In this document: positions 8,134-64,000 of the stretch, in pieces
Layout: each line of letters opens with the position of its first letter
How positions within the stretch are numbered: the stretch's first letter is position 1
DNA from: Nocardia sp. NBC_01503
Lineage (GTDB): Bacteria > Actinomycetota > Actinomycetes > Mycobacteriales > Mycobacteriaceae
Direction: 5' to 3'
Assembly: GCF_036327755.1 (NCBI RefSeq)
Contig: NZ_CP109596.1
Coordinates: 2,852,001-2,916,000, forward strand
DNA length: 64,000 nucleotides
The notes under the pieces: model-generated
The model's database searches: none
Seen by the model: the letters and a program-made list of their open reading frames with translations, nothing else
What the model was told of the DNA's origin: nothing
Made by a program: the position numbers and the translations under genes

Positions 8134-10077
8134 ATGAGCCCCAACGCAATTCTCGAGTTCATCCTCAATCTGCTGCGGGATCACGAAGCAGCCGTCGGCT
8201 ACTGCGCCAATCCGGGCCAGGCCCTGATCAATGCCGGATTGGAGAACGTGACCCCCGAGGACATCGCCGCCGTCGCGCCCATGGTCGCCGAATCCGCGCT
8301 GGTAACCGGAGGTTCGCAACTCGGCGCGATCATCGCGGCGGGCGGCGGTGCGGGCGCGGCCGCCGGAGTGAACGGGGCTGGGGGACTGAATGGTTCGACC
8401 ACCCTGAATGGTGGGACCGATGTGAATCTCGGGACCGGTGTGAATGGTGCTGCGGGCGTGAATGGTTCGGTGCACCTCGGCACCGCGACCGCGACCGAGG
8501 TCTGCTTCACCGGTGATGCCGGATCCGGACTGGAATTGGGCCTCACCAGCGGAATCGGTGGCGTGGTCGGGGCGGCCGCCGACCTCGGGGCGGATCTGTC
8601 CGCGGGCATCGGCGGAGCGGTCTCCACCGCCGCCGACGCGGCAACCGGCCTGCAGGCCAACCTCTCCGGAGTCCTCGGCACCCAGGCCGCCGCCGATCTC
8701 ACCTCGGCCCTCACCGGCGGCCTGACCGTGGGCGCGGGCCTGCAGGCGGGGATAGACGCGGCCGTGAACGGCGCGGCCCAATCCGGTGCGACCCTCAGCA
8801 CCGCCCTCACCGGTGCCCTCGATTCCGCCGCCAACCTCGAGACCGATCTCGGCACCACGGTGAACACCGCCCTCGGCGCGGGCGCGACCCTCGGTACCGA
8901 CCTCTCCGGTGCGGTGAACGGCGCACTCGGCGCGGGCGCGGGCCTGGAGACGGGTCTCTCCGGCGCGGTGAACGGTGCCCTGGGTGCGGGCGCGGGTTTG
9001 CAGACCGGGCTGAACGGCGCGCTCAACGGCGCGGCGAATCTCGGCACAGATCTTTCGGGTGCTGTGCACACCGCGGTGGGTGCGGGCGCGGGATTGGAGA
9101 CCGGCCTGAACGGCGCGGCGAACCTCGGCGCGCAGCTCGCAAGTGGGCTCGGCGCAGGACTTTCCGGCGGTGTCGACACGGCTGTCGGCGCGGGCGGCCA
9201 GGTCGGCGCGGGGCTGGGTGCGGGCCTGGAGACCGGTCTGAACGGCGCGGCCAACCTGGGAGCCGAGCTCGGAAATAGTGTCGGTGCGGGGCTTTCCGGT
9301 GGACTCGATACCGCTGTCGGGGCGGGTACCCAGGCGGGTGCAGGTTTGGGTGTGGGGCTGGATGGCGCGGTGCATGCGGGAACGCATGCGGCGGGCGATC
9401 TCGGAGCGGGGCTTTCGACTGGGTTGTCCGGAAGCGCCGATGCCGCAGCAGGTTTGGGTGCGCAGCTGGGGAATGGGTTGGAGACCGGGCTTTCGGGGGC
9501 GCTGAATGGGGTCACCGCCGGTAGCGGGCAGGTGGGGGCCGGGTTGAGCAGTGGGATCGATTCGAGCGTCGGGGCCGGGGTGCATGGGGCCGGGGATCTC
9601 GGAGCCGGATTCTCCTCCGGGGTCGGCACCGTCGGGAATCTCGGTGCACAGGTTGGGAATGGTTTGGAGACCGGACTTTCCGGCGGTGTCGATACGGCCG
9701 CACACGGTGTCGGCGGGGTCGAGACGGGGCTCTCCTCCGGGCTGGATGCCGCGGTGCACGGGGGTTCGCAGGTGGGGGCGGGGCTCTCCTCCGGATTGGA
9801 CACCGTCGTTCACGGTGCGTCGCAGGTCGGTGCCGGGCTCGACACCGGGGTGGGTAGCGGGATCGATTCCTCGGTCGGCGGCGGTGCGCAGGTGGGGACC
9901 GATATCGGTGCGGCGGCGAATCCCTGGGCCGGACTGGATGTTTCGCAGGCCTTCGGTGAGGGAGTGCACAGCGGGGGTGTGGATTCCGGGCTGTTCGGCG
10001 ATGCCGGGGCGCACGGCGGGATGGAGCTCGGAACGCATCCGGGTGGGGACATCGTCGGCGACATGCTGCACTCGTAG
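8134..10077 (+). CDS. iniB: IniB, Gly/Ala-rich repeat protein of the iniBAC operon
   Basis: 647 aa from ATG 8134, preceded by AGGAG. Residues 1-~60 are the conserved IniB N-terminal domain (helical, starting MSPNAILEFILNLLRDH). The rest is a long low-complexity region of Gly, Ala, Leu, Val, Asn and Thr with imperfect ~18-residue units such as VGAGLSSGLDTVVHGASQ and frequent GLETGLNGAANLGA blocks. There is no signal peptide or clear membrane helix. In mycobacteria iniBAC is induced by inhibitors of cell-wall synthesis; the protein's biochemical role is unknown. It is longer than M. tuberculosis IniB (~479 aa) through extra repeats. Its stop is 138 bp before iniA. Confidence 0.85.
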   Translation: MSPNAILEFILNLLRDHEAAVGYCANPGQALINAGLENVTPEDIAAVAPMVAESALVTGGSQLGAIIAAGGGAGAAAGVNGAGGLNGSTTLNGGTDVNLGTGVNGAAGVNGSVHLGTATATEVCFTGDAGSGLELGLTSGIGGVVGAAADLGADLSAGIGGAVSTAADAATGLQANLSGVLGTQAAADLTSALTGGLTVGAGLQAGIDAAVNGAAQSGATLSTALTGALDSAANLETDLGTTVNTALGAGATLGTDLSGAVNGALGAGAGLETGLSGAVNGALGAGAGLQTGLNGALNGAANLGTDLSGAVHTAVGAGAGLETGLNGAANLGAQLASGLGAGLSGGVDTAVGAGGQVGAGLGAGLETGLNGAANLGAELGNSVGAGLSGGLDTAVGAGTQAGAGLGVGLDGAVHAGTHAAGDLGAGLSTGLSGSADAAAGLGAQLGNGLETGLSGALNGVTAGSGQVGAGLSSGIDSSVGAGVHGAGDLGAGFSSGVGTVGNLGAQVGNGLETGLSGGVDTAAHGVGGVETGLSSGLDAAVHGGSQVGAGLSSGLDTVVHGASQVGAGLDTGVGSGIDSSVGGGAQVGTDIGAAANPWAGLDVSQAFGEGVHSGGVDSGLFGDAGAHGGMELGTHPGGDIVGDMLHS

Positions 10078-61757: not shown

Positions 61758-63092
<1,335 letters not shown>

Positions 63093-63093
63093 C

Positions 63094-63357
63094 CCGCCTC
63101 TCCGAGACTTCGGCGCACGGCTGAGGGCCGTTGGCTGTTGGGGACGCGGGGTGCGGTCGGGTGTCGAAACTGTTTTGGAGGTACCCGGTGAGTTACCCCG
63201 AACTCGCGAGATCAGTTGTGCCGTACCGCCTCCCCGAGACTTCGGCGCACGGCTGAGAGCCGTTGGCTGTTGGGGACGCGGGGTGCGGTTGGGTGCCGAA
63301 ACTGTTTTGGACGTACCCGGTGAGTTACCCCGAACTCGCGAGATCAGTTGTCCCGTA
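63094..63357. repeat. Two tandem copies of a 132-bp sequence after purA
   Basis: Copy 1 63094-63225 and copy 2 63226-63357 are ~95% identical by eye (about six substitutions, no indels). Copy 1 begins two bases after the purA stop. It contains no ORF supported by a start or RBS. Internal CTCGCGAG and GGTACCCGGTGAGTTACCCC-like symmetry is present in both. Confidence 0.85.
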
Positions 63358-63372
63358 ACGTAATAAAGACTC

Positions 63373-63398
63373 TCCCGCTGTGCTGAAGTGCAGCGGGA
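63373..63398. terminator. Terminator hairpin between purA and the MocR gene
   Basis: TCCCGCTG pairs with CAGCGGGA across a 10-nt loop, just past the tandem repeat and 19 bp from the stop of the convergent gene. No T run on plus; may serve both genes. Confidence 0.6.
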
Positions 63399-63416: not shown

Positions 63417-64000
63417 TCAGTAGCAGGTCAGGGGGGCCAGGGGCTCGGCGGCGTGTGGGGTCAGCGACGCATACGCCGCTGCGAGGGATTTCACGCCCAG
63501 GCGGATATCGCCTTCCTCGTGGGTGAAGGGGAGGCGGAGGAAGCGTTCGAAGGCGCCTTGGACGCCGAAACGTGGTCCGGCGGCGAGTAATACGCCGTGA
63601 TTGGGGGCGGTGGCGGCCAGGGCGCTGGAGACGGGGGCGGGGAGCTGGGCCCAGAGGGACATGCCGCCCGCGCCGGGGGAGACGCGCCAGTCGGGGAGCT
63701 CCTCGGCGAGGGCATCGAGTAGGGCGGCTCGGCGGGAGCGGAGCTGTTCCCTTCGCACGGTGAGGATTCGGTCCGCGTGCTGGAGCAGGTGCACCGTCGC
63801 CAGCTGATCCATGACCGGGGTGCCCAGGTCCATGGTCGAGCGGGTGCCGAGCAGTTTGGTGATCAGGGACTGATTGGCGCGCACCCAGCCCACGCGCAGG
63901 CCGCCCCAGAACGATTTCGACGCCGAACCGATGGTCACGATCTCCGTACCACGCGCGAATGACGCTACGGGCGGCATGATTTCGTGATCGGTGAGATGCA
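63417..64000 (-). CDS. PLP-dependent aminotransferase domain, probably MocR/GntR type (N-terminus beyond window)
   Basis: The last ~194 residues of a fold-type I aminotransferase; the frame is open to base 64000, so the start is outside. The PLP lysine sits in SASKSFWGGLRVGWVRA, followed by PGAGGMSLWAQLP and FLRLPFTHEEGDIRLGV. This pattern is common to the C-terminal domain of MocR regulators; the GntR-type DNA-binding part would lie outside, so a free aminotransferase remains possible. Confidence 0.78.
   Translation of the reverse strand, partial: HLTDHEIMPPVASFARGTEIVTIGSASKSFWGGLRVGWVRANQSLITKLLGTRSTMDLGTPVMDQLATVHLLQHADRILTVRREQLRSRRAALLDALAEELPDWRVSPGAGGMSLWAQLPAPVSSALAATAPNHGVLLAAGPRFGVQGAFERFLRLPFTHEEGDIRLGVKSLAAAYASLTPHAAEPLAPLTCY

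Follow-up and report, generated by a model that had tools for sequence, protein, structure and literature searches.

MITEs and repeats of the RUP, BOX, ERIC and RU types are small, intergenic, multi-copy and non-autonomous, while elements of the IS200/IS605 and rolling-circle types are recognised by ends that are precise, arrays whose members share an end, a helix near the 5′ end and no duplication of the target. The name MIRU, for mycobacterial interspersed repetitive units, reportedly goes back to Supply et al. in 1997. An excerpt of PMC2734929 gives MIRUs a length of 40-100 bp, and an excerpt of PMC12548453 describes them as inserting at start codons, with an internal open reading frame coupled to the next gene. 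Judged from their descriptions and not from sequence, MIRUs are nearest in behaviour to the repeat described here, which makes up 264 bp behind purA in Nocardia sp. NBC_01503. It seems likely that these 264 bp consist of two tandem units of a short interspersed Nocardia repeat, a MIRU-like, non-autonomous mobile 3′-end element with a putative function.

Like the MIRUs of these excerpts, the Nocardia repeat is short, occupies tens of intergenic sites with tandem copy-number variation at some of them, is apparently mobile and is tied to a translation signal; there are 60 matches in the genome, 39 of 39 near-complete copies are intergenic and 15 loci are tandem. It differs from the excerpted descriptions in length, with a core of 125 nt, or about 139 nt with both 7-nt ends, and a period of 132 against 40-100 bp. 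It differs also in position, being placed at stop codons where MIRUs are placed at start codons with a coupled reading frame; its copies differ by 1-nt indels, and none of 81 downstream starts lies within 12 nt of an element. With MITEs and the RUP/BOX/ERIC/RU repeats it shares its small size, intergenic location, multiple copies and lack of autonomy, but unlike a MITE it has no terminal inverted repeats and no target duplication that could be found. The absence of target duplication, the precise ends and a helix near the 5′ end are shared with the palindrome-associated elements derived from IS200/IS605, although, in place of the conserved flanking tetranucleotide of these, only two near-fixed bases were observed on its left flank, and no partner transposase was seen. 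No description of a Nocardia repeat of this kind was found among open-licence PMC papers, and in the excerpt of PMC5543724 purA and isocitrate lyase do not occur.

The window, that is the whole stretch of 64,000 nt that was analysed, contains two 132-nt copies of the repeat head to tail at 63094-63225 and 63226-63357. They are 95% identical with no gaps, differing at exactly six substitutions (63101/63233, 63126/63258, 63158/63290, 63164/63296, 63180/63312 and 63220/63352), and the pair has the top Tandem Repeats Finder score, 486, among the 24 rows for the window. The repeat begins at the second base past the purA stop codon (63090-63092). The initial annotation had described a 132-bp tandem pair of about 95% identity with six substitutions and no indels, two bases after the purA stop, and all of these points hold. 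The features of the region are:

61803-63092, + strand: purA, adenylosuccinate synthase, an open reading frame with its stop codon TGA at 63090-63092 and a match to NCBIfam NF002223 (E 2.8e-189)
63088-63094, + strand: heptamer GCTGACC at the 5′ terminus of copy 1, sharing bases with the purA stop codon; the family form is RCTNNNC
63095-63219, + strand: the 125-nt core of the dispersed repeat in copy 1 (profile match, positions 1-125)
63220-63226, + strand: 7-nt junction GCCGTAC, with which copy 1 ends and copy 2 begins
63227-63351, + strand: core of copy 2, 125 nt (profile match)
63352-63358, + strand: 3′ terminal heptamer of copy 2, CCCGTAA; the family form is CGCGTTC
63374-63397, no strand assigned: inverted repeat CCCGCTG..CAGCGGG beyond the pair, a possible 3′-end hairpin of purA, read from the sequence
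63417-63998, − strand: 3′ portion of a MocR-like (YczR) gene, convergent and cut off by the window edge, an open reading frame with NF052290 as its best NCBIfam match

Since one heptamer serves both copies, the tandem period is 132. The best NCBIfam match of the MocR-like gene (NF052290, E 7.6e-69) falls under the cut-off because the gene is partial. A hairpin 3′ of purA is also present in element-free relatives (L078 and L087); the terminator scan made no call for the inverted repeat at 63374-63397. Elsewhere in the window, the DNA at 8835-9840 is repeated in tandem with 54- and 132-bp periods, the common period of 132 seeming to be a coincidence.

While correct in what it observed, the initial annotation missed the wider scope, in that the unit is a member of a dispersed non-coding repeat family. 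BLAST placed it at 40 positions in the NBC_01503 genome, counting the purA pair once, and a sequence-only profile built from an alignment of 37 copies from this genome gave 60 matches at E ≤0.01. A BLAST match to the unit was present in 80 of 118 Nocardia genomes, its own included, and the profile found 44 and 28 matches in two further Nocardia genomes (G011 and G072, assemblies of 2 and 1 contigs, respectively). A pattern scan of named genomes gave at least 80 places; among the matches listed 64 were in Nocardia and 16 outside it, those in Rhodococcus sp. SMB37 and Rhodococcoides trifolii being real and the other 14 possibly due to chance. The pattern of both ends occurred at 43 places in the NBC_01503 genome compared with 0-2 per genome in other genera, where some single matches are plainly not the element; the backward control gave 2 and 0 in NBC_01503. 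A phage or plasmid origin was considered and rejected, neither collection containing a match to the repeat.

All 39 near-complete copies fall between called genes, although some of them reach into the end of a neighbouring gene, by 19 nt at most. For this count 3 of 42 matches, covering fewer than 100 model positions, were left out; the alignment comprises 37 of the remaining 39, omitting two of L041. The gene calls used here, at aceA-fadB2 and for placing at stop codons come from a home-made codon-usage caller and not from an annotation. In the aligned copies homology begins and stops sharply and the flanks are unrelated, so that the copies are not segmental duplications, and the 1-nt indels between copies argue against a protein-coding unit. 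Copies crowd into the origin-proximal half of the genome (52 of 60 in NBC_01503, 39 of 44 in G011 and 23 of 28 in G072). A replication-linked function is not claimed, there being no fork orientation (29 of 60 in NBC_01503) and the crowding having been counted without a gene-content control.

The median identity between copies within the NBC_01503 genome is 60%. The purA pair is 96% identical over the core, and the only other close pair in the genome, at 98%, is another tandem pair; the doubling behind purA is thus much younger than the repeat family. These values bear on an alternative account of the locus, in which unique non-coding DNA was recently doubled in tandem, or a rearrangement left a scar, with no wider meaning. 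The 95% identity of the two copies against the family median does indicate a recent and local tandem step, but the genome holds some 60 occurrences of the unit, others are spread over the genus, and purA and its convergent neighbour are also adjacent in G011. As a full account simple duplication is refuted and is true only for the doubling step; that nothing beyond it is involved is very improbable. Of the meanings offered in the initial annotation, that of a doubled 3′ untranslated unit stands, the pair being far younger than the family. The scar at a rearrangement junction is not supported, given about 60 dispersed copies and the adjacency of purA and the convergent gene, which is kept in G011 and several other relatives.

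The core is bordered on each side by seven weakly conserved bases, RCTNNNC before it and CGCGTTC after it. Among 57 copies of the NBC_01503 genome the 5′ heptamer has C at -6 in 46 and C at -1 in all 57; these two positions are the only ones near fixation in the left flank, which shows no clear fixed tetranucleotide. Tandem copies are found at 15 loci in the data set, and in 12 of them the following copy has an intact 5′ end (the exceptions being L055, L248 and L378), while the preceding copy may stop anywhere from position 41 to full length. Arrays of at least three units, mostly partial, are seen at L068 (in G112), L327 and L360, which are candidate VNTR loci. The two ends are not linked by any inverted repeat of at least 12 nt. 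Among 104 full-length copies that were flanked by 40 nt at either end there was no significant flanking direct repeat that would mark a target duplication, the best z being 3.2 over 2,559 windows of four lengths; a diagonal with a z of 3.2 on 68 copies vanished with 104 copies and was dropped.

Ends of this kind might suggest descent from an element of the IS200/IS605 (single-strand, Y1) or rolling-circle type. Such an origin would fit the lack of target duplication, the arrays, the position near the 5′ end of helix P2 (see below) and a dimer period of 132, which equals the core plus one 7-nt end. It appears unlikely, however, as the left flank offers only RCTNNNC and no clear fixed tetranucleotide, and no autonomous partner was seen, the one split copy examined holding an unrelated island. 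In this split copy (L238, NBC_01503 C1:1183859-1190785) the repeat is interrupted by a 6.8-kb island that has a GtrA-like gene on one side and a histidine kinase on the other, with translations that read as WXG100-type proteins, a Fic protein and an IS transposase remnant, on a reading of the translations and not a family search. The island was considered as an autonomous version of the repeat and was taken as incidental. Likewise, at 1334463-1336332 a half copy and a full one enclose a gene, called with the same home-made caller, that was considered as a transposase and set aside, its translation reading like GMP synthase. No mobilising gene was found at either of these two places.

The copies are not distributed at random with respect to stop codons. 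Of 194 distinct copies that score at least 30, are complete at both ends and lie between two called genes, 99 follow a co-directional gene and 95 have a divergent 5′ neighbour. Behind a co-directional gene 53 of the 99 start no more than 7 nt after the stop codon, where 11.2 would be expected for a copy placed anywhere within its own intergenic space. The gap in these 53 is 7 nt in 18, 2 nt in 12, 1 nt in 9 and 6 nt in 5, and in a further 9 the reading frame runs into the element; gaps of 3-5 nt are absent because the heptamer RCTNNNC permits no stop codon there. In copies with a gap of 1-2 nt the heptamer itself contains the stop codon. No such excess is seen where the 5′ neighbour is divergent (6 copies against 6.0 expected) or where the 3′ side faces an opposed stop codon (11 against 13.9). 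Beside a divergent gene the commonest middles of the heptamer are TCC (23 of 95) and TGT (22 of 95). The placing suggests that insertion prefers stop codons in one orientation, to which selection at gene ends after insertion could add. As the 5′ gene is divergent in 95 of the 194 copies, a 3′-end function cannot apply to every copy.

Orthologous copies were compared in 12 independent pairs of 15 qualifying, so that no copy was used twice; to qualify, a pair had flanks at least 88% and at least 85% identical and an element at most 22% different, and the column classes were taken from all other copies. Conserved columns changed in 16 of 493 cases (3.2%) and variable columns in 144 of 687 (21.0%; Fisher p 5e-21). 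Neutral decay after insertion would give equal rates in both classes, and the copies appear to be kept from decay in place, although part of the signal could also be produced by gene conversion between them. With 209 copies, nearly all from Nocardia, RNAalifold proposed a small domain in the 5′ half. The three pairs of its helix P2 take the compensatory types CGC/GCG, CGG/CCG and GCC/GGC across subfamilies; all are formed in 77 of 137 dereplicated copies compared with 33.1 after shuffling, counts that are inflated by subfamily relatedness, and slid versions are worse. The same helix was the best in a register scan of 57 NBC_01503 copies (41 against 23.6 expected). Helix P1 has no covariation and P3 little. 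RNAalifold returned no pairs for the 37 NBC_01503 copies, in which P2 is 97% paired but nearly invariant and so neither supports nor refutes the helix. The helix emerged only with the 209 copies from many species and so rests on differences between subfamilies. Taken singly, the two window copies fold no better than shuffled sequences on either strand (z -0.35 and -1.00).

Conserved blocks that are kept in place and a covarying helix would also be expected of a family of small-RNA genes, each copy with its own promoter, in which case the purA pair would be a doubled sRNA gene, much as the initial annotation had suggested with its duplicated small-RNA unit; relatives in other genera that bear a strong hairpin (see below) point in the same direction. 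There is, however, no Rfam match at the element, Rfam 15 giving none in the window at the gathering score and one in 20 related loci, an ASdes match in L113 away from the element. The region has no consensus promoter or terminator, by a test that is weak in actinobacteria, and the tight placing behind stop codons better suits the 3′ part of a message. A small-RNA family would thus seem quite unlikely.

Outside Nocardia the profile gave one or two matches per genome; when 121 genomes of the family, from 31 genera, were searched, it matched 23 genomes in 10 genera overall. At 19 of 20 non-Nocardia loci, in eight genera, the match is a hairpin-bearing relative that sits between aceA and fadB2, L113 being the exception and L112, L127 and L132 being left out of the count. 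In two loci the neighbours were named by NCBIfam as isocitrate lyase (aceA) and 3-hydroxybutyryl-CoA dehydrogenase (fadB2). Rhodococcus sp. SMB37 (L269) has the same two neighbours, and in Rhodococcoides trifolii (L281) the match lies directly behind aceA. The aceA-fadB2 element resembles the Nocardia repeat over both conserved halves, CCGCCTCYCCG.. and ..GTACCC..GAGTTACCC.., and like it begins close behind a stop codon, that of aceA. It differs in having one or two matches per genome and a central stem of 14 pairs, where the Nocardia copies have a short helix. In this stem 94.6% of cells are paired (93.2 after shuffling) and four pairs are changed on both sides compared with 2.0 after shuffling, a value reached in 9 of 500 shuffles; seven of the non-Nocardia sequences folded singly gave z of -2.9 to -5.7. 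No published name for the hairpin element was found in the open-licence PMC literature.

Among 30 Nocardia aceA loci, three (L180, L181 and L189) have a match between aceA and fadB2, one (L182) has a match behind fadB2 and 26 have none, two of these (L168 and L169) ending within 90 nt. NBC_01503 itself has one reverse copy between aceA and fadB2 and one copy behind fadB2, and N. aobensis (L258) has one copy between the two genes. Many of the repeat-free Nocardia loci (in the set L165-L194) carry a different conserved hairpin, GTAGGGGTGTACCGCCCTCCCC..GGGGAGGGCATCCCTATA, before fadB2, perhaps a leader or attenuator of that gene. With somewhat less certainty than the family itself, the aceA-fadB2 hairpin would appear to be the nearest known relative of the repeat. 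The Nocardia repeat may derive from the aceA-fadB2 element, or that element may be an old insertion. A fuller scheme, to which we would give modest weight and regard as doubtful, would have the repeat as both mobile element and standard part, sharing descent with or arising from the aceA-fadB2 hairpin, inserting in a stop-linked manner and being kept as interchangeable folded 3′-end modules of dozens of genes.

Occupancy differs between species at individual sites. In the 30 best purA loci of 98 genomes, own included, of which L077 ends 78 nt past the gene, the site behind purA is occupied in two, NBC_01503 and N. niigatensis (G027). The initial annotation had proposed that copy number be checked in related strains and that single copies be sought behind purA in other Nocardia, and the check came out otherwise, 28 of 29 relatives having no copy there and N. 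niigatensis one. The N. niigatensis copy shares 71.7-74.0% identity with those of the window, a little more than the median of 67.5-68.8% for the whole set of copies, and it is possibly an independent insertion. In the 0.8 Mb compared with the close relative G011, 11 sites had both flanks in view, counting the purA pair once. Four of these are empty in G011 (purA, L012, L034 and L042) and three are shared (L031, L241 and L244); at two (both L029, around aceA and fadB2) the copy is in the opposite orientation, and the remaining two are ambiguous, L021 being rearranged and L243 having 150 nt in which no copy was detected. Because the flanks of the empty sites have diverged, none of them presents a clean pre-insertion site. 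In NBC_01503 the fadB2 reading frame takes its end from the copy behind the gene, so that the protein finishes with ..YQYNSASPRT*, as against ..YQYNR* in G011, the sole relative compared there.

The three sites in common with G011, together with placing at stop codons, constraint in place and an aceA-fadB2 relative conserved across eight genera, could be read as pointing to a vertically inherited 3′-end regulatory element, such as a terminator or processing site, spread by recombination and local duplication and not by transposition. We regard this as rather unlikely, since sites turn over between close species, the two orientations relative to the 5′ gene are about equally frequent (99 and 95), a copy ends fadB2 and the flanks have no homology. 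The repeat family looks mobile, with no terminal inverted repeats or target duplications found. The shared G011 sites and the uncertainty over N. niigatensis weaken the turnover argument a little; the polymorphism, placing and constraint stand.

The repeat is dispersed, non-coding, intergenic and polymorphic in site between species, with a defined 5′ end, arrays, a compensatory helix and conserved blocks that are kept. On the preferred reading, of a short interspersed mobile repeat with a putative 3′-end role, this non-autonomous element would be copied in trans by a putative enzyme, its 5′ end tending to be inserted on a stop codon or immediately after one. A copy would have landed on the purA stop codon in the NBC_01503 lineage, and a later 132-bp tandem step through the similar 7-nt ends would have doubled it. 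More tentatively, an inserted copy may act as a folded 3′-end element of the preceding gene, affecting the 3′ end of the transcript, the stability of the message or protein binding, and selection may keep the conserved blocks because the copy works in this way.

Should this reading hold, a short mobile repeat would be present in many Nocardia species, no name for it having been found in the open-licence PMC literature, and its VNTR-like arrays could serve for strain typing, as MIRUs do in mycobacteria. Two traits would be odd for such a repeat, its placing at stop codons in one orientation and the selection that holds copies in place. They would make it possible to test how a short element finds the ends of genes and how mobile DNA turns into a reusable 3′-end part, with the aceA-fadB2 relative providing a named locus at which both questions could be addressed.
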